This document shows positions 1 to 41,409 of a stretch of DNA of 41,409 nt, piece after piece (positions within the stretch are counted from its first letter, which is position 1; every line of letters begins with the position of its first letter). This DNA is from a virus. The notes beneath the pieces are model-generated. The model saw only the letters and a list, made by a program, of their open reading frames with translations. It ran no database searches and had not been told where the DNA came from. Both the position numbers and the translations under genes were made by a program. The stretch lies in IMG/VR virus record IMGVR_UViG_3300024308_000039, positions 1 to 41,409 of that record; one strand, given 5' to 3'.

Positions 1-241
1 TGGCATCGAGGCGCAGGCGAATGCCCGGCAAGGCCGCGGCTACCTGCTTGGCATTCAGCTCAGGGAAGCTGCCGACGAGGTTCCATTTTCCCTTGAGCAC
101 CAGGTACCACGACGCCCGGGCGCGATCGCGGGTGAAACGCAGGTACAGACCGCGATTCTCGATGTCGCGCAGGTCGCGCACGGTGCCGGCGGCCTGGCGC
201 TTTATTTCGGCGTCGGTGATCTTCAGGGCGGCGGTGGTCAT
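1..241 (-). CDS. Tyrosine recombinase Int2, N-terminal part (gene crosses the window ends)
   Basis: This is the first part of a gene that runs off base 1 and resumes at 41409. The ATG is at 239-241, overlapping the stop of the upstream 55-aa ORF as ATGA. Joined through the 126-bp end repeat the frame is continuous and gives 426 codons. Residues 1-80 (MTTAALKITDAEIKRQ onward, then LYLRFTRDRARASWYL) look like the N-terminal arm-binding region of phage integrases, with the beta-strand pattern seen in P4-type enzymes. The catalytic domain is in the 40243-41409 part. The N-terminal family assignment rests on position and pattern only. The continuous frame across the join is directly visible. Confidence 0.85.
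   Translation of the reverse strand, partial: MTTAALKITDAEIKRQAAGTVRDLRDIENRGLYLRFTRDRARASWYLVLKGKWNLVGSFPELNAKQVAAALPGIRLRLDA
2..127. repeat. Direct end repeat, copy 1 (identical to 41284-41409)
   Basis: Bases 2-127 match 41284-41409 without a difference. The base before the repeat differs (T at 1, C at 41283). The repeat lies inside the Int2 coding sequence and joining the copies restores that gene, so this is the overlap of a circular or circularly permuted molecule. A length close to a common assembly k-mer size supports an assembly origin. It does not look like an attachment-site duplication or a packaging end. Confidence 0.9.
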
Positions 242-405
242 AATGCCTTCCTTGCCGAGCGCTCTACTTCTGCCTTGCGATCCCGGCGCCTGCGCTCGAA
301 ATCTTCAATAGAGCGCTGCCGGCGGCGGTCTATGAAGTGCCCACAAAGGACTCCGATGACAATCGCGAAGAAAACAACAACCCAAAACTGTTCGTATGCA
401 GTCAC
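238..405 (-). CDS. Small membrane protein (55 aa) upstream of Int2
   Basis: GTG start at 405, overlapping the stop of the VRR-NUC gene (GTGA). The stop at 238-240 overlaps the ATG of Int2 (ATGA). The product MTAYEQFWVVVFFAIVIGVL... has one membrane helix at residues 7-22 and then a very basic/acidic tail of Arg, Glu and Lys, so a short periplasmic N-terminus and cytoplasmic tail are likely. Four-base overlaps on both sides are the best evidence that it is translated. No family recognised. It resembles the other one-helix proteins of this operon in architecture only. Confidence 0.7.
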   Translation of the reverse strand: MTAYEQFWVVVFFAIVIGVLCGHFIDRRRQRSIEDFERRRRDRKAEVERSARKAL

Positions 406-1260: not shown

Positions 1261-1478
1261 TCGGGATCCCTGCCCTTTTGCTCAAGCTCAATGAGCAATT
1301 CAAGGAAGTGTTTGGCTTTCTCCAGGTCGGCCAGGCCGCCCTTGTCGCGCCAGCGTGTGACGTACTTGATCACGCTGCCCTCGGCGAACGGGATGCCATT
1401 GGCGTGGATGTATTCGATCGGCTGGATTTTGAGCGACTTGTAATGGCCGCCTGAAACTTGTTTATCGAGCGCGCTCAT
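1257..1478 (-). CDS. DUF3310 family protein (73 aa)
   Basis: Contains the DUF3310 signature HYKSLKIQPIEYIHANGI followed by FAEGSVIKYVTRWRDKGG and LEKAKHFLELLIE. These short phage proteins lie near nucleotide-metabolism or replication genes and some are labelled SaV-like nucleotide kinases. The molecular role is unproven. Its start overlaps the stop of the P-like gene and its stop overlaps the start of DUF1364, placing it in the replication operon. Confidence 0.9.
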   Translation of the reverse strand: MSALDKQVSGGHYKSLKIQPIEYIHANGIPFAEGSVIKYVTRWRDKGGLADLEKAKHFLELLIELEQKGRDPE

Positions 1479-2131
1479 TGGGCAGCTCCTGCGCGCATGG
1501 CGCGCAACTGAGCGAGTGCACTGTTTCCAATCTCAGGGGTACGGCGGCCATCTACGCGGGCAGGCAATGCCAATGGCATCTTTTGTAGCGGCAGCCCATC
1601 GATCAAGCGGCGCAGCGTGATCACGTAGTTGCGCTCGAAGAGCTTGCGAGCGAGCGAAGTTTCAAGGCGGTTCAGGCTTTCAAAGCCCGATTCCTTTGCT
1701 GTGTGCCAGATCGCGTCATGCGACCAATTCGCCTGGCCGGCCATTGATGGATGGACATTGCGGCACGCTTCGCGGAACGCCGTTTCGAGCGGTGGCAGCC
1801 CAAGCATTTCCGGGGTGGGCTGACAAAGGATGATGAACTTGCCGACGCTCGGAGCGAAGTCGGAGCCAAGCTTTCGGCACTGCTCGATGCCAAAGCGAAT
1901 CTGCTCGACCTTAGTGATTTTTTCGGCCATGAAGGCCTTGGTCCATGTGGCTTTCGCAGCGTTGACGGCCTCTTGGTCAGGCCATGCCTGCTTCCAGGCT
2001 GGGAAGATTGCCATCAGCTCACGGAACAACGCGTTGATGACCTGTACAGTCCCGGGATCAACCTTGACCGGTGCACCCTCAGCCGAGGCGACGTTGGGCA
2101 ACATTTTCAGCACACTCGAAACGGAATTCAT
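1475..2131 (-). CDS. P: Replication protein P-like helicase loader (218 aa)
   Basis: Lambda P-type protein. The central block with FRELMAIFPAWKQAW (about 37-51), ATWTKAFMAEKIT and VEQIRFGIEQCRKL, then PTPEMLGLP, matches the phage replication protein P family. These recruit the host DnaB helicase to the O-bound origin. It directly follows the O gene. The ATG at 2131 overlaps the O stop as TGATGA, and a GGGAGG Shine-Dalgarno sits 7 bases upstream. A GTG three bases earlier is a less likely start. Confidence 0.88.
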   Translation of the reverse strand: MNSVSSVLKMLPNVASAEGAPVKVDPGTVQVINALFRELMAIFPAWKQAWPDQEAVNAAKATWTKAFMAEKITKVEQIRFGIEQCRKLGSDFAPSVGKFIILCQPTPEMLGLPPLETAFREACRNVHPSMAGQANWSHDAIWHTAKESGFESLNRLETSLARKLFERNYVITLRRLIDGLPLQKMPLALPARVDGRRTPEIGNSALAQLRAMRAGAAQ

Positions 2132-2922
2132 CACAGACCTCCCAGGTCATCACCCCAGCTGGTGTCATTGAAATCAGGCTCTTGACCACGGCCTGCTGCC
2201 TGCACTCGCTCACGTTTCACCCACTGAACCAGCCGGTAGCACCAGCCGGAACCGGAATCCCGCGTTGTCGTCTTGGCGCAATAAAAACCTTTGAACTTGC
2301 GGACCGCCTCCACCGGCACGCAATCGTCCGGCAGACCAGCGATTGCGACCTGGTCCGAGAGCGACTTCTCGTTCGGCACCCAGGTGGCGAACATGGCGAA
2401 GCGTTGGCGGTCGTCTTGCGATTCGACGGCGCCCCGGTCTTGGTCGGCGACAGCGGAATCGATCTCGCGCTGCTGCAGCTGCTCTTCGGTTACCTGACGG
2501 TTAAGTGACGTATTGGGTGCAGCCGCTGCACCCCGTTCTGTCTCAGGCTGCACCCCGTTCTGTTGTGAGTTGCACCCCGTTGCGTCATTTGCACCCCGCT
2601 CAGAACGGGGTGCAGGATTTGCACCCCGCGATAGTTGAAGGTCGTAAACGACTGGGCGGCGGTCATGACGGTCGATGTGTACAGCGGCGATCGCCTGATT
2701 CCCCTTTCGGATCAGCCCTGACTTCTCCAGATCGTCCAGTTTGTAACGCACGGTGCGCTCAGACAGACCGGTGTCGTCGGCCAGCGTGGTAGCGGATGGG
2801 AAAGCACCAGTGCCGTTCGAGCCGGCGTAGTTGGCCAAGCACAGCAGCACGTGCCGAGCGCTGGAATCTTTGAGAACTTGAGTGGGCAAACCGAGCGCCC
2901 ATGACATTGCTTGAACGCTCAC
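2131..2922 (-). CDS. O: Replication protein O-like origin-binding protein (263 aa)
   Basis: The N-terminal winged helix-turn-helix (about 25-85, with FPSATTLADDTGLSERTVRY) is the HTH_36/DnaA-like DNA-binding domain of phage O proteins. A flexible Gln/Gly/Ala linker follows (100-160). The C-terminal block with FATWVPNEKSL and GWCYRLVQWVKRER resembles the DnaT-type primosome domain. The linker is encoded by DNA carrying the iterons at 2527-2628, as in lambda where ori lies inside O. It binds the origin and recruits the P-like protein. Its 5' end overlaps the antirepressor stop. Confidence 0.88.
   Translation of the reverse strand: MSVQAMSWALGLPTQVLKDSSARHVLLCLANYAGSNGTGAFPSATTLADDTGLSERTVRYKLDDLEKSGLIRKGNQAIAAVHIDRHDRRPVVYDLQLSRGANPAPRSERGANDATGCNSQQNGVQPETERGAAAAPNTSLNRQVTEEQLQQREIDSAVADQDRGAVESQDDRQRFAMFATWVPNEKSLSDQVAIAGLPDDCVPVEAVRKFKGFYCAKTTTRDSGSGWCYRLVQWVKRERVQAAGRGQEPDFNDTSWGDDLGGL
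2527..2628. other. Iteron replication origin inside the O gene
   Basis: Five direct copies of TGCACCCCG begin at 2527, 2549, 2571, 2590 and 2620. The first three are exactly 22 bp apart, about two helical turns. One inverted copy (CGGGGTGCA) at 2606-2614 forms an 8-bp inverted repeat with the 2590 copy. The array falls in the low-constraint linker of the O-like gene, the position of the lambda origin. Binding by the O-like protein is inferred from this arrangement. Confidence 0.85.
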
Positions 2923-6880: not shown

Positions 6881-7318
6881 ATGTTCGGTATCGGTAAAAA
6901 GCTGTTCGGCGCCAAGCGCGCAGTCAAGAAACTGGAAAATCGTGACCTGATGCAAGCCATCGTCGGTGGCTGTCTGTTGGTTGCGGCATCGGATGGCGAG
7001 ATCAGCAAGAACGAAGCGGCTCAGATCGACATCCAGATCCGCGCCAACAAAGCCCTTGAGCACTTCGGCTCCGAGATCACCAGCACCGTCAACCTGTTCA
7101 CCGAACAGCTGCAGGCGGGCTTCCGTCTCGGTCGCATGAACATCCTGCGCGAGATTCGCGACATCAAAAACAACCCGGCGGACGCCGAAGAAGTCTTCGT
7201 GAACATGCTCACGGTGGCCGAAGGTGACGGCAACATCAGTCCCGAAGAGATGAAGGTGCTCGCCGAGATCGGCAATGAGCTCGGCCTGCGCCTGAAAGAC
7301 TTCGGTATCGAAGCGTGA
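6881..7318 (+). CDS. TerB-family protein (145 aa)
   Basis: All-helical protein of the TerB family. The pattern LLVAASDGEISKNEAAQI (32-49) and a second AEGDGNISPEEMKVLAEIG near residues 116-134 are the paired acidic helix motifs of this fold, which can bind metal. In bacteria TerB belongs to tellurite/stress membrane complexes, and phage copies have no proven function. ATG at 6881 behind AGAGGA. The stop overlaps the GTG of the next, membrane-bound, gene, which may be a partner. Confidence 0.75.
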   Translation: MFGIGKKLFGAKRAVKKLENRDLMQAIVGGCLLVAASDGEISKNEAAQIDIQIRANKALEHFGSEITSTVNLFTEQLQAGFRLGRMNILREIRDIKNNPADAEEVFVNMLTVAEGDGNISPEEMKVLAEIGNELGLRLKDFGIEA

Positions 7319-10631: not shown

Positions 10632-11639
10632 ATGCCTGTACTTCACAGCGTGATCCACAAGATCGACAAAAAGCCTGACGGCACCCCGGCTGTATTATTT
10701 CTCGGCAGTTCCGAGCAGGTCGAAAGCCAAGCCCGCGACGATCTGATGAATCAGTTCAACGAAAGCTACAACGCCACCGCCGGCAAGGGCTGGGGATTCT
10801 TCCATGCCGAATCTGGAGCATTCCCTCTGAGCGGCTGGCTCGCCAAGTACCTGGCGGGCGGCACCGACTTCCTCGATTTCAGCGTCACCGCCGTCGAGCA
10901 CTTGACCCGATTGATGGAGGAATCGAACTTGACTACAGGCGGCCACGCCCTTTTCTGTCAATACCGGCAAGGTCTCACTGACTACCTGATCATTGCCTTG
11001 GTGCAAGAAACGGAAGCGGTAACCATGACCGAAGAGTTGCACCTGATGGCGGTGAAGCGCTTGGATCTGGATCACATCCGTCTGGCCGCGCGCATCAACA
11101 TCAGCGAGTGGCAGAGCAATCCGCAATCGAAGCAGTTCATCTCGTTCATCAAGGGCAAACAGGGGCGCAAGCTGAACGACTACTTCCGTGATTTCATAGG
11201 ATGTCAGGAAGGGATCGACGGCCCCGGCGAAACCCGGACCCTGCTCAAGGCCTTCAGCGACTTCGTTGAGAGCGAGGATCTGAGCGAAGAATGTGCGCGC
11301 GAGAAGACTCAAACCCTCGTCAGCTACTCGATGGCCCAGGCCAAGCTCGGCGAACCGATCACCCTCGACGAACTGTCCGAGCTGATCAACGAGGACCAGC
11401 CGAAGAGCTTCTTCGACTTCATCAAGTCCAGGGATTACGGGCTTTCTGACTCACTGCCACCGGATAAGAAAACTCTCAACAAATTCCGGCGATTCACAGG
11501 CCGGGCCGAGGGCTTGTCGATCAGCTTCGAGCAACACCTGCTCGGATCGAAGATCGAGTTCGACGAAGCCGGCGGCACGCTGACGCTGCGTGGTCTGCCA
11601 ACCCAGCTTACAGAACAGCTAAAGCGCGCGAACACCTAA
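10632..11639 (+). CDS. Nucleoid-associated protein, NdpA/YejK family (335 aa)
   Basis: Full-length match to the 37-kDa nucleoid-associated protein family. Shared features are [86 protein letters not shown] and the C-terminal [19 protein letters not shown]. Host YejK binds DNA and interacts with topoisomerases. A phage copy could reshape host or phage nucleoid structure early in infection. ATG behind GAGGA. It lies just after the antisense pair. Confidence 0.92.
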
Positions 11640-14940: not shown

Positions 14941-14983
14941 CCCATCACCACCTTCTGCCGCCACGCGCGGCATGGAGCATCAC

Positions 14984-15226
14984 ATGAGCAAAGTCACCCT
15001 GGATGAATGGGCGGCGGCCGAGTTCAAGACGCCGCCTAGCCCCAACACGTTGCGCAAATGGGCGCGCGAAGGCCGGATCGCGCCAGCACCGGTGAAGCAC
15101 GGGCGCAGCTACTATGTAGAGTCCAACGCCCACTATCAGGAGCCTGACCTGCAGCCAGTCCGCATTGTCGGTGGCAGTCTGATCAGCAGAATAGAGAGAG
15201 CACGCAATGGCGCCCAGGCCGCGTAA
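14984..15226 (+). CDS. xis: Excisionase (80 aa)
   Basis: Small winged-helix excisionase: LDEWAAAEFKTPPSPNTLRK and WAREGRIAPAPVKHGRSYYV are the family hallmarks. It binds and bends attachment-site DNA to direct Int1 towards excision. ATG at 14984 has GGAG ten bases upstream. An ATG at 14972 in the same frame precedes it. The 3' end overlaps int by 20 bases, the usual xis-int arrangement. Confidence 0.9.
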   Translation: MSKVTLDEWAAAEFKTPPSPNTLRKWAREGRIAPAPVKHGRSYYVESNAHYQEPDLQPVRIVGGSLISRIERARNGAQAA

Positions 15227-16310
15227 CACCGGTTCAAAGGATCTTCCCCCGAATCTGTACCGCAAGACCGACGCCCGCAACGGCGTCACTTATTACACCT
15301 ATCGCGACCCGGTCAGTGGTCGCGTGTTCGGTCTGGGCAAGGACAAGGAAGCGGCGATCCGTGAGGCGGTCGCGGCGAATCATGCCGACGCAATCAAGCC
15401 AACGCTGACCGATCGCATCAGTGCGCCGGCGCCAGCACCGGGAAAACTGTTTTCGGAATGGCTCGAGGAATACCGCGAGCTGTTCGCCGAGCGAAAGCTG
15501 TCCGCCAGCAGCAACAAAAACGTGCGCATGCGAATCAACAGGCTGGACGCTGAGTTCGGTTCGAAAGGGATAAAGGAAATCACCACGATGGATGTGGCCG
15601 ATTACCTGACGGGTATGGCCAAGGAAGGAAAGGCGCAGATGGCCAGGGCGATGCGCTCGCTGTTGCGAGACGTGTTCGCCGAGGCTCAGGCGCGGGGGTG
15701 GGCAGACGCCAACCCGGTCGAGGTGACCAAGGCGGCGCGGGTGAACATCAAGCGCGAACGGCTGACGTTGGAACTGTGGCAGGCGATTTACGCCGAAGCG
15801 ACGAAGCCGTGGCTTCGCAGGGCAATGGAGCTGGCGGTGCTGACCGGTCAGCGCCGCGACGATATCGCCTCGATGCTGTTCAAGGATGTGCGCGACGGCT
15901 TTCTGCATGTCGTGCAGTCCAAGACCGGCGCACGCCTGCGGATCAGCACGGAGCTGCGACTGAATTCGGTCGGGCTGGATCTCTCCACCGTCATCAAACA
16001 ATGCCGCGATCGCGTTCTGTCACAACACCTGGTTCACCATGCGCAAGCGTCGGGCCGGGCGAAGGCTGGCCAACCTGTCGTGCTGGACACACTGAGCTCG
16101 GCATTTGCCGAGGCCCGGGACAAAGCCGGCGCGAAGCTGGGAATAACTTTCGGGCGGCAACCGCCGTCCTTCCATGAACAGCGATCGCTTGCCGCGCGCC
16201 TTCATGAGCTCGAAGGCCGCGATGCCCAGAAGCTGCTTGGCCACCGCTCGGCCGCAATGACCGACGTGTACCGAGACAGTCGAGGCGCAGAGTGGATCGA
16301 CGTGGCATAA
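15207..16310 (+). CDS. int: Lambda-type integrase Int1 (367 aa)
   Basis: Full-length lambda Int family. The N-terminal arm-binding domain (DLPPNLY at 12-18, then YRDPVSGRVFGLGKDKEAA) is nearly lambda-like. The core-binding domain is about 80-180. The catalytic domain has Arg216 (TGQRRDD), Lys239 (QSKTG), His323/Arg326 (FHEQR), His346 (LLGHRS) and nucleophile Tyr355 (DVYRDSRGAEW). Start ATG at 15207 behind GAGAGAG. It lies last in the plus-strand early operon and beside the attP candidate, so it is the likely integration enzyme. Confidence 0.95.
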   Translation: MAPRPRNTGSKDLPPNLYRKTDARNGVTYYTYRDPVSGRVFGLGKDKEAAIREAVAANHADAIKPTLTDRISAPAPAPGKLFSEWLEEYRELFAERKLSASSNKNVRMRINRLDAEFGSKGIKEITTMDVADYLTGMAKEGKAQMARAMRSLLRDVFAEAQARGWADANPVEVTKAARVNIKRERLTLELWQAIYAEATKPWLRRAMELAVLTGQRRDDIASMLFKDVRDGFLHVVQSKTGARLRISTELRLNSVGLDLSTVIKQCRDRVLSQHLVHHAQASGRAKAGQPVVLDTLSSAFAEARDKAGAKLGITFGRQPPSFHEQRSLAARLHELEGRDAQKLLGHRSAAMTDVYRDSRGAEWIDVA

Positions 16311-16322
16311 TCACCGGCTGAA

Positions 16323-16538
16323 TTTTGGGGCGATATTGGGGAAGTTTTGGGGAGGATTTTATGCCCAATGAAATCAAGCACTTACAGCTTTACGGCATCA
16401 AGGCGTGGGATGCCGCATAGGAATCACTTAAAGCCTTTTAAATCAAGGCTTTGAGCCGTAAATCAGCACTGAAAACTACTCGATTTTGCGACTGTTCAGA
16501 ACCCAATAAACATTGGCCCGAACGGTTGCGTTTTGGGG
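16323..16538. other. attP region candidate with IHF sites and arm-site repeats
   Basis: Two perfect matches to the IHF consensus WATCAANNNNTTR lie at 16372-16384 and 16441-16453. TTTTGGGG occurs at 16323-16330, 16345-16352 and 16531-16538, with a variant ATTGGGG at 16335-16341, as expected of arm-type integrase sites on both sides of a core. An AAAGCC/GGCTTT inverted repeat lies between. Placement straight after int fits lambda attP. The core and host attB cannot be defined without the host. No other gene is seen in 16311-16629. Confidence 0.75.
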
Positions 16539-16629
16539 AAGAAATCTATTTAGCCAATCCCGCCCCCGGCGTCCTGCCGAACGCAATAAAACTTACACTC
16601 CCGTAACGCAGATGTATGGATTGCCCTCG

Positions 16630-39067: not shown

Positions 39068-39094
39068 GAAAAAGCCCCGCACAATGGCGGGGCT
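39068..39094 (-). terminator. tR'-like terminator/SD joint before the first late gene
   Basis: AGCCCCGC/GCGGGGCT (39073-39080 and 39087-39094) followed by TTTTTCG on the minus strand, then CTGGAG and ATG at 39051. It lies about 50 bases after the expected start site of the promoter at 39146-39175, like lambda tR', and would be the point at which the Q-type protein allows read-through. Confidence 0.82.
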
Positions 39095-39145
39095 CAGAAT
39101 TTTTTGGTCGTCTCTCATAACGCGCAAGATCGACATGATTGGGTT

Positions 39146-39175
39146 AATTTACGGCCAAGTGGCCATCATGGTCAA
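39146..39175 (-). promoter_or_regulatory. Late promoter PR' candidate
   Basis: Minus strand: -35 TTGACC (39170-39175) and -10 TAAATT (39146-39151) with an 18-bp spacer, overlapping the end of the Q candidate gene. Followed by a terminator and then all late genes. This matches the lambda Q-PR'-tR' arrangement. Confidence 0.72.
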
Positions 39176-39735
39176 GCGGCATCAACAAAGATTTGTTCTC
39201 GGTCGAAAATCTCGGTGGCATGGATCACCGCAGCCTCTTCCAGCTGCTCAAGTCGCTTGTGTATTCCACCACGCCAGTTGCGCCGCGTGCGCTCCGGTGA
39301 GCCAGCCAGATCCCAGGTGTTCATGTCATAGAACTCGGCCGGCAGCACAATCATGTCGGTCGAACGCTTACCCGACTGAACGCCCTTCAGCTTCGGGATA
39401 GCCCAAGCCGTGAGCGCTTTGTAAATGAACAGCTCGGGCGCCGGCGAAGTCATTCGCGAGACCAGCCTGCCGATCGCGGCGACTTTGTTGGCCTTGTGAG
39501 TTGAATACTTGGCGACCAACACGTCCCACTGCGCGGGGGCGAGCTGGCGGTGCAGCAGCGCATATAAGCAGCAGTCGTAATCGAACTTGTCGCGGGGCGA
39601 TAGGGAGCTGCCATTTCCGCCTTGGCGCAGATCGGCGTCGATCAGCTTTTGCCAGGACTGCTTGGTGCTGTTATCGATGTTATCGGCGGCGAGCACGCGC
39701 ACGAGGGTGCCCATCACGTCTTTATACATACCCAT
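39172..39735 (-). CDS. Q-type late antiterminator candidate (187 aa)
   Basis: Last gene of the early minus-strand operon, directly followed by a PR'-like promoter and tR'-like terminator. Helical protein with DKFDYDCCLYALLHRQLAPA, WDVLVAKYSTHKANKVAAIG and the C-terminal TRRNWRGGIHKRLEQLEEAA, which has DNA-binding character similar to phage Q/DUF1133-like proteins. Sequence match to a named family is not certain. Position is the main evidence. ATG at 39735 behind a G-run (GGGGG). Confidence 0.6.
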   Translation of the reverse strand: MGMYKDVMGTLVRVLAADNIDNSTKQSWQKLIDADLRQGGNGSSLSPRDKFDYDCCLYALLHRQLAPAQWDVLVAKYSTHKANKVAAIGRLVSRMTSPAPELFIYKALTAWAIPKLKGVQSGKRSTDMIVLPAEFYDMNTWDLAGSPERTRRNWRGGIHKRLEQLEEAAVIHATEIFDREQIFVDAA

Positions 39736-39737
39736 GC

Positions 39738-40049
39738 TCAATCCCCCTTGTAAGACGAACCGCCAGGCCCGCGGCTGTTTGCTGTTTGGTATTCATCAAC
39801 GATCAAGTGAGTCGGATTTTTGCCGGTGATCTGTGCGCCACCCCGACGAGCCATTCGGCCGAGCTGAACCACCAGCTGCTCCAGCGGCACCACCTCAAGG
39901 GTCTGGGCATGGACGAAGCCGGACGAGTGACAGCCGATGCAATCGAGCTCGTAGAAAACGCCCCTGATCATTCCTTTACCAGCGCACGACGGGCAGTCGG
40001 TAAGCGGGATCAGGGTTCGCACTAAGGCGGGTCCGTGCGACTTTTTCAT
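39738..40049 (-). CDS. Zinc-finger protein with CxxC pairs (103 aa)
   Basis: CPSCAGKGMIRGVFYELDC then IGCHSSGF form one zinc-binding module resembling DnaJ-type repeats (residues about 19-44), followed by a helix (LEQLVVQLGRMARRGG). Common just before Q in Pseudomonas phages. Its ATG at 40049 overlaps the 40046 gene stop, and its stop is 3 bases before the Q candidate ATG. Function unknown. Confidence 0.75.
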   Translation of the reverse strand: MKKSHGPALVRTLIPLTDCPSCAGKGMIRGVFYELDCIGCHSSGFVHAQTLEVVPLEQLVVQLGRMARRGGAQITGKNPTHLIVDEYQTANSRGPGGSSYKGD

Positions 40050-40240
40050 ACGGACACCACCAAACGCCGGTGAATGGCTCGGACATCAAGCCCGGCTTCC
40101 GGCTCGTGATGAATCACCAGTTCGAACCCGTCTTTCATGGTGATGATCAGACGAGGCCGGCCGGCCTCAGCGAATTGGACCGCCGCTATCAGCTTCGGAT
40201 TTACAGCGAGGCCAGAGGCCGCATTGAGCAAAATCATCAT
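40046..40240 (-). CDS. Small beta-rich protein of unknown function (64 aa)
   Basis: ATG at 40240 with GAGG upstream, 2 bases after the Int2 stop. Pattern ILLNAASGLAVNPKLIAAVQ then RPRLIITMKDGFELVIHHEP recalls a family of short proteins from Pseudomonas plasmids and phages with a two-layer beta fold. A CsrA-like size but no CsrA motif. Couples Int2 to the Q-proximal genes. Confidence 0.65.
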   Translation of the reverse strand: MMILLNAASGLAVNPKLIAAVQFAEAGRPRLIITMKDGFELVIHHEPEAGLDVRAIHRRLVVSV

Positions 40241-40242
40241 TT

Positions 40243-41409
40243 TTAAACCTCGCCTATGGTTGATTCTTGAATGGCCTCGCAGCCCTTGTGTTGCGTGGCT
40301 TCCAGCCCATTACCAGAATCTCCCGTTCTAAAGCCGGTCAATCCGTGAATGTGATGAAAACCCTTCTGGTCTAGATGCGCGTGCCACTTCTCCAAGGCAT
40401 CGCGCTTGCGGCTCATGACGTCGGACTGGATGTACACCTTCACGTTGTGGCCCATCGCGTGGTTGATCAGCAGCTCGCCAATCAGGTGGTCGACCCCAAT
40501 GTCTGCCCAACCGGTGCGGGCCACTTTGCGCAGGTCGTGGCTTGTCCATCCGCCCTTGCCCAGGCGGGTGAACACTGCGCTGGCCTGGCCCTCGCTCAGC
40601 GCCTTCCCGTTGCGGGACGGGAACAGGAACTGCCCGTCGTAGCCGTTCGCCCACTGGGTTTCGCGATAGGTCATCAGCAGCTGGCGCACCTGGTCGGTCA
40701 GCGGCAGGTGATGCTCGACGCCGGTCTTGGTGTTCTCGGCCGGAATGAACCACTCACGCTCGGCCAGGCTGACGTGCGACCACTGGGCCTGACGGGTCTC
40801 ACCGATGCGGGTGCCATGGCACAGCATCATCAGGGCGAACAGGGCATCAGCCGGCGCGGTGGTCATGGCCTCCCGCAGCTGGGTGAGCAGGTCTTGAAGC
40901 TGGGTCACCCGCAGCCGTGAAGGCTTCACCCCGACCTTTGCCTTGGAGAAATCGCTGAACTTGACGTCCTTCATAGGATTGGTCGCGATCAGCCGCAGCT
41001 TGAACGCCTGCCGGAAGGCCAGGGCCAGCAGCTGGAACGCCGAGCGCACGTAATCGATGCCGATGGTTTCCTGCGCCGGCCACATGAATTGATCGTCGAG
41101 CGTGGCCTTGTCGATGCCAGCCAGCGGCACAGCGCCCAGCAACGGCTTCAGGTGGCACTTGATCAGTGAGGCGCCGGTCTTCTTGCGCTTGCTCGACAGG
41201 CTGCGGTCGCGGGCCATGCGGTCGGCGTACCAGTCCAGCAACTCGCCAGTGGTGACCCACTTCGACAGGTTGGAACCCTCACCGGCATCGAGGCGCAGGC
41301 GAATGCCCGGCAAGGCCGCGGCTACCTGCTTGGCATTCAGCTCAGGGAAGCTGCCGACGAGGTTCCATTTTCCCTTGAGCACCAGGTACCACGACGCCCG
41401 GGCGCGATC
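40243..41409 (-). CDS. Tyrosine recombinase Int2, C-terminal catalytic part
   Basis: This holds residues 38-426 of the 426-aa recombinase that starts at 241. A core-binding region (about 85-195) is followed by a catalytic domain with every expected active-site residue: Arg239 in CHGTRIGE, Lys266 in NTKTG, His329 and Arg332 in SHDLR, His355 in INHAMG and nucleophile Tyr364 in VKVYIQSD. It therefore looks active. The sequence differs clearly from the lambda-type Int1 at 15207-16310 and is closer to the P4-like class. Its stop lies 2 bases before the ATG of the 40046-40240 gene, so it is part of the early minus-strand operon between the VRR-NUC nuclease and the Q candidate, not beside an attachment site. 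A role in integration, multimer resolution or circularisation cannot be decided from the sequence. Confidence 0.9.
   Translation of the reverse strand, partial: DRARASWYLVLKGKWNLVGSFPELNAKQVAAALPGIRLRLDAGEGSNLSKWVTTGELLDWYADRMARDRSLSSKRKKTGASLIKCHLKPLLGAVPLAGIDKATLDDQFMWPAQETIGIDYVRSAFQLLALAFRQAFKLRLIATNPMKDVKFSDFSKAKVGVKPSRLRVTQLQDLLTQLREAMTTAPADALFALMMLCHGTRIGETRQAQWSHVSLAEREWFIPAENTKTGVEHHLPLTDQVRQLLMTYRETQWANGYDGQFLFPSRNGKALSEGQASAVFTRLGKGGWTSHDLRKVARTGWADIGVDHLIGELLINHAMGHNVKVYIQSDVMSRKRDALEKWHAHLDQKGFHHIHGLTGFRTGDSGNGLEATQHKGCEAIQESTIGEV
41284..41409. repeat. Direct end repeat, copy 2
   Basis: Second copy of the 126-bp end overlap described at 2-127. Removing one copy leaves a circular unit of 41,283 bp. 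No cohesive-end site or short inverted repeats typical of a cos site are visible at the junction. Confidence 0.9.

Follow-up and report, generated by a model that had tools for sequence, protein, structure and literature searches.

A second tyrosine recombinase between the replication and late genes of lambda-like Pseudomonas phages, with relatives in phage-plasmids

When a phage that already encodes an integrase carries a second enzyme of the same class elsewhere in its genome, the question arises of what the second one does. Such a case is found in IMG/VR virus record IMGVR_UViG_3300024308_000039, of which the whole stretch of 41,409 nt was analysed (hereafter the window). One of its tyrosine recombinases, Int1, lies in a cluster with xis and attP; the other, Int2, is encoded between the O, P and VRR-NUC genes and the late-control genes. 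Genes of the Int2 family carry the annotation ‘integrase’ and were found, with a related query, in 74 of 299 sampled Pseudomonas species genomes, around a quarter. If they are not integrases, predictions of lifestyle and prophage boundaries that rest on one integrase gene would be misled, and a recombination step in the lytic growth of common phages would be missing from the textbook lambda plan.

The extent of the gene depends on the form of the record. Positions 41283-41409 are a second copy of positions 1-127 (126 of 127 identical, with a single T/C mismatch), and this terminal 127-bp overlap makes the record a circle of 41,282 bp. A sequence-only reading had placed a recombinase open reading frame at 40243-41409; the frame is present, but that interval holds a fragment, and the complete gene runs across the joint of the circle as complement(join(40243..41282,1..241)), with its ATG at 241 and a product of 426 aa. 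The catalytic residues listed in that reading (R239, K266, H329, R332, H355 and Y364) fit only the joined gene, in which all six stand at the positions given. They fall inside a tyrosine recombinase domain (PF00589, E=1e-20), and the protein also matches PHROG_1 integrase (4e-51) and NCBIfam integrases. Across 107 dereplicated homologues, each of the six is unchanged in 106 or more while other residues vary, so that an active enzyme is probably under selection. The features of the window are collected in Table 1.

Table 1. Coordinates of int2, its neighbours and the integration cluster in the window.
Feature	Coordinates	Strand	Basis or remark
int2, C-terminal part (~residues 80-426)	40243..41282	-	gene continues at 1-241
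int2, N-terminal part	1..241	-	start codon ATG at 241
55-aa ORF, one hydrophobic stretch, GTG start	238..405	-	stop overlaps int2 ATG as ATGA
VRR-NUC nuclease, 143 aa	402..833	-	PF08774 2.3e-12; PHROG_824; PHROG_5702 Holliday junction resolvase 9e-13
HNH endonuclease-like protein, 100 aa	958..1260	-	PHROG_131 1e-35
P-like helicase loader	1475..2134	-	PF06992 4e-31; PHROG_109
O-like replication initiator	2131..2922	-	PHROG_1032 5e-68
64-aa ORF directly 3' of int2	40046..40240	-	ORF
103-aa Cys-rich protein	39738..40049	-	PHROG_5085; int2 neighbour in most homologous loci
189-aa protein in antiterminator Q position	39172..39741	-	PHROG_3412, unknown function
Excisionase	14972..15226	+	PF07825 5e-31
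Int1, lambda-type integrase with arm domain	15207..16310	+	PF09003 7e-26, PF00589 3e-14; 69% identical to LESphi3 integrase
attP crossover core CTTTACGGCATCAA used by Int1	16388..16401	+	attL/attR of two lysogens converge; pp3 att sequence

Translational coupling of int2, proposed from the sequence alone, is upheld by the ATGA overlap with the 55-aa ORF, the overlap of that ORF with the VRR-NUC gene, and a gap of 2 nt between the int2 stop and the 64-aa ORF. The description of the genes beyond as ‘Q-proximal’ is right as to position; the identity of the 39172-39741 product as Q is not borne out by its PHROG match. Before the late genes, positions 39071-39149 of the minus strand give an Rfam isrJ match (41.3 bits), which is probably a late leader RNA and not isrJ; this leader ends in a terminator that is conserved in about half of the related loci. 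Elsewhere, the window encodes an NdpA/YejK-like nucleoid-associated protein (10632-11639, PHROG_3767) and a tellurite-resistance-like protein (6881-7318, PHROG_632).

The position of int2 is widely conserved. Scanning species genomes yielded 40 loci (39 in Pseudomonas), and among viral contigs 331 relatives turned up, of which 80 were kept. On its replication side, Int2 in homologous loci has P, an HNH gene, VRR-NUC or no recognised gene; on the other side come the 103-aa gene, late control, holin, HNH and terminase. In two sets of loci the 103-aa gene stands next to int2, in 34 of 39 cases and in 76 of 80. Where at least 3 kb is available on each side, replication-side and late-side phage genes flank Int2 in 35 of 37 chromosomal and all 44 viral loci, and the other two chromosomal loci are without recognised upstream markers only. 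The neighbours are mosaic and freely exchanged, with TerL ranging from 21 to 99% identity, and the slot is kept in more than 100 loci. At one locus (G200:C1:1034411-1046187) two Int2-family genes stand about 10 kb apart on one strand, perhaps in tandem or remnant prophages.

Integration of the phage can be assigned from related lysogens. Two genomes with Int1 at 95% and 90% identity carry related prophages. In the first, window 14974-16401 aligns at one prophage edge and 16382-16580 at the other; in the second, 14948-16410 and 16363-16545 align at opposite edges. Both lysogens split the window sequence at 16388-16401, and Int2 is deep inside the prophage. The core lies at the 5' end of a host ArsC-type (arsC-like) gene. 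Within window 16350-16401, an attP ATG (~16361) is in frame with the core, so that integration supplies this host gene with a new start codon of phage origin. Prophage pp3 of P. aeruginosa PA1 is described as using this att site, at which it no longer excised once int3 had been deleted (PMC5367828). The int3 product of pp3 is 98% identical to the LESphi3 integrase. At the junctions examined in the two lysogens, Int1 integrates and Int2 is not the integrase.

Gene neighbourhoods agree with this assignment. In the window, xis and attP flank Int1 (14972-16401), and int2 is flanked by the VRR-NUC gene with the 55-aa ORF on one side and the 64-aa ORF on the other. Of 32 integrating-phage records with Int2, 30 encode an additional tyrosine recombinase, mostly at the record end, and 11 of 12 genomes examined have a recombinase on the opposite strand, 5-20 kb upstream of Int2. 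The proposal that Int2 is distinct from the integrase is thus sustained: both lysogen junctions fall at the Int1 attP and none beside int2, and in those 30 records the Int2 homologue is not the sole recombinase.

Int2 might still act now and then as an additional integrase, pairing an attP of its own with another chromosomal attB, as a backup or host-range device. Its PHROG and NCBIfam matches are to integrases, and structure prediction tends the same way. In an AF2 model of a homologue 90% identical to Int2 (L049; pLDDT 80, pTM 0.48), a predicted N-terminal alpha-beta domain (1-79) is accompanied by a helical core-binding domain and a catalytic domain, and the top PDB match in Foldseek is full-length lambda Int, above Xer (XerA) and Cre; the Pfam arm domain is marginal (E=0.037, in 1 of 18 members). 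This predicted lambda-Int-like N-terminal domain suggests that Int2 may bind two kinds of DNA site. A second integrase is nevertheless unlikely in our view, given the two mapped junctions at the Int1 attP, no junction found beside Int2, the phage genes (for the markers used) on both sides in 35 of 37 chromosomal loci, and the existence of phage-plasmids that have the Int2-family enzyme alone and are circular replicons.

The interval that holds int2 has a different occupant in LESphi3, which carries NinG/Rap between its replication genes (O) and Q. Int2 takes the same place in the window, where Q is assigned by position only, and it matches PF00589 and not the NinG/Rap domain PF05766. Neither NinG nor RusA was found in any of the 32 Int2 records. 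Raw counts over the 299 Pseudomonas genomes give NinG in 91 and Int2 in 74; of the 86 chromosomal Int2 loci, again as a raw count, a single one has NinG within 10 kb. At the exceptional locus (G215:C9:118306-120065) NinG directly precedes int2, and the two genes are therefore not strictly exclusive. VRR-NUC is present in 21 of the 32 Int2 records and absent from 11; the expected linkage of int2 to VRR-NUC and the Q-proximal genes was found, with the nuclease optional. From these comparisons of LESphi3, NinG, VRR-NUC and RusA, Int2 occupies the nin interval with VRR-NUC, NinG or no nuclease before it.

Such a location could mean that Int2 and the neighbouring nuclease form a general junction-processing factor that has no specific site and substitutes for NinG/Rap. 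The near exclusion of NinG from the slot would fit, as would the VRR-NUC or DUF1064 nuclease-like genes close by in many elements. We find this quite improbable, since the 11 records without VRR-NUC and the prophage in which NinG and Int2 stand side by side argue against it, and tyrosine recombinases of the Int2 build are normally site-specific.

Outside integrating phages, the best relatives of Int2 belong to circular phage-plasmids of P. aeruginosa, P. lundensis pPL-38ph, pHN2, Delftia pHQS1, and Halomonas and several Vibrio elements. Most of these phage-plasmids carry ParA, and no other tyrosine recombinase was found or annotated on them, p0908 excepted; the view of the Int2 family as a ‘second’ enzyme, which suits integrating phages, does not extend to them. 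Except in the p0908-like group, the Int2 relative precedes holin and terminase. ParA-bearing circular phage-plasmids of Pseudomonas, Delftia and Halomonas measure 38-48 kb, and pHN2 is larger. A Pseudomonas contig of 40,470 bp encodes ParA and an Int2-family enzyme, and blastp found no second recombinase on it. A quick tree places the Int2s of integrating Pseudomonas phages in a single clade (support 94), with Pseudomonas phage-plasmid recombinases as its sister (support 87); the very long branch of the outgroup leaves deeper relations unrooted. Int2 thus shares a sequence clade with the phage-plasmid enzymes (support 87-94), and the element that carries it is probably not a plasmid prophage: related lysogens use attP, and the window encodes Int1 and Xis. 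The phage-plasmid replication proteins tried gave no Pfam match. DUF1064 (PF06356) nuclease-like genes occur in the region of the Int2 relative in four elements (L129, L131, L143 and L132).

These relationships raise the possibility that Int2 is a Cre-like phage-plasmid multimer resolver, retained in integrating phages either as a remnant or to serve a passing plasmid phase. The family does supply the sole tyrosine recombinase annotated on ParA-bearing circular phage-plasmids, including pHN2, and the 40-kb contig and the tree point in the same direction. Several observations make this reading unlikely: the gene lies downstream of a repressor in a lytic-type operon, no lox-like site was found near int2, the predicted N-terminal domain is arm-like, and VCre is also present in p0908. 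Catalytic residues stay intact in integrating phages and do not decay, so Int2 is not a mere relic. In the p0908 element (L139, L140, L141), VCre is encoded with VloxP at a distance of ~435 bp; a second short tyrosine recombinase is present too, as is an Int2 relative, the frame of which is interrupted where the record begins. VCre/VloxP is a tested Cre-type system (PMC4957104), so p0908 has no need of its Int2 relative to resolve dimers, and this coexistence makes plain dimer resolution an insecure role for Int2. An identification of Int2 as a VCre-type resolvase was rejected, as VloxP belongs with VCre (BMSC_RS00350) and the Int2 relative is another gene.

A site of action for Int2 was sought in several ways. 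Apart from repeats that look like terminators or origins, no inverted repeat of the lox or dif type with a 6-8 bp spacer is conserved near int2. Repeats in direct or inverted orientation within 0-1.5 kb and 39.1-41.4 kb include nothing core-like, and the upstream gaps of the phage-plasmid relatives hold no shared site. Core-like repeats had been suggested near 0.1-0.5 kb and 40.2 kb; none is present there and none is conserved across homologues. A synonymous-constraint scan of int2 gave no strong constraint or clear embedded site, and only the poorly sampled C-terminus stands out.

Four conserved sequences were considered as sites and set aside. The sequence CGGGGCTTTTTCGTTTTCGGCTCC, ~1.4 kb downstream of int2, reads as the late-leader terminator (isrJ-like Rfam match), and AAAAAAGCCGGTGGCTAGACCGGCTTCTTC, which the window lacks, is found ~4.2 kb upstream as a terminator-like leader in front of rha. 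The inverted repeat TGCACCCCG-N7-CGGGGTGCA is found in 43 dereplicated loci, within O and ~3.2-3.4 kb upstream of the int2 end, and is likely a replication-origin repeat. A hairpin, CACACCCATTGCTCCGAGCTGGGAGTG, stands just after the late-leader terminator in 45 of 106 related loci (e.g. L004:22813-22839) and is absent from the window and from phage-plasmids. These results also bear on a possible genetic switch, in which Int2 would invert or excise a phage segment near the late genes. Although int2 adjoins late-control genes, there is no conserved inverted repeat pair apart from the terminator-like and origin-like repeats, and the gene order around int2 has a single orientation across loci; a switch is highly improbable.

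The reading that we favour, tentatively and at just short of an even chance, is that Int2 works in the lytic phase, recombining phage DNA that is free and replicating. It would be produced from the early lytic operon, between O/P and late control, with lytic timing judged from operon position, and would leave integration to Int1. Int2 would bind a phage-borne site, probably together with arm-type sites, recombine circles or concatemers with themselves or one another, and so determine how much of the DNA is monomeric or multimeric when packaging starts. Its origin may lie in the sole recombinase of ParA-bearing phage-plasmids, or in a recent ancestor of both. The DNA target, the reaction and its direction are what we infer here. 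Counted against a lytic-phase role are the null site searches, the integrase-like N-terminal domain and the presence of VCre in p0908. Packaging of the cos type, as in lambda-like phages, needs multimers, and resolution to monomers would not obviously help. By extension, lambda-like integrating phages of Pseudomonas may possess a dedicated lytic-phase site-specific system of phage-plasmid descent, housed in the nin slot, that processes replicating genomes, a generalization that we hold at slightly less than even odds. Neither a gene nor a lytic-phase role of the Int2 type is described in the closest literature found, which was covered in part. With the link to phage-plasmids, a passage between plasmid and integrating lifestyles also becomes an idea that can be tested.

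Set against known systems, Int2 has a catalytic domain and predicted N-terminal arm-like and core-binding domains in common with lambda-type integrases (the LESphi3 integrase, int3 of pp3 and Int1 of the window), and its N-terminal domain, as predicted, looks typical of integrases and unlike Cre/Xer. Unlike the lambda-type integrases, it is not beside attP and xis, not at a prophage edge and not used at the lysogen junctions; Int2 and Int1 are too distant for a reliable joint tree. With NinG/Rap of the lambda nin region, Int2 shares the genomic interval from replication genes to Q and the operon position, and the two are nearly exclusive in Pseudomonas; NinG, however, is a junction endonuclease and an unrelated protein, whereas Int2 is a tyrosine recombinase. 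The enzymes of Cre/lox, VCre/VloxP and Nigri/nox are tyrosine recombinases of phage-plasmids, as are the Int2 relatives, and p0908 carries both kinds; Cre-type enzymes form a different family with a 34-bp lox site close to the gene, of which none was found for Int2. The enzymes of ParA phage-plasmids (pPL-38ph, pHN2, P. aeruginosa CP124676, pPAC1.3b, Delftia pHQS1 and Vibrio phage VPHZ6) are ~37-44% identical to Int2 over nearly the whole length and share its place before holin and terminase genes. Those elements are plasmids in which neither search nor annotation gave any further tyrosine recombinase, whereas here a lambda-type Int1 integrates the phage.
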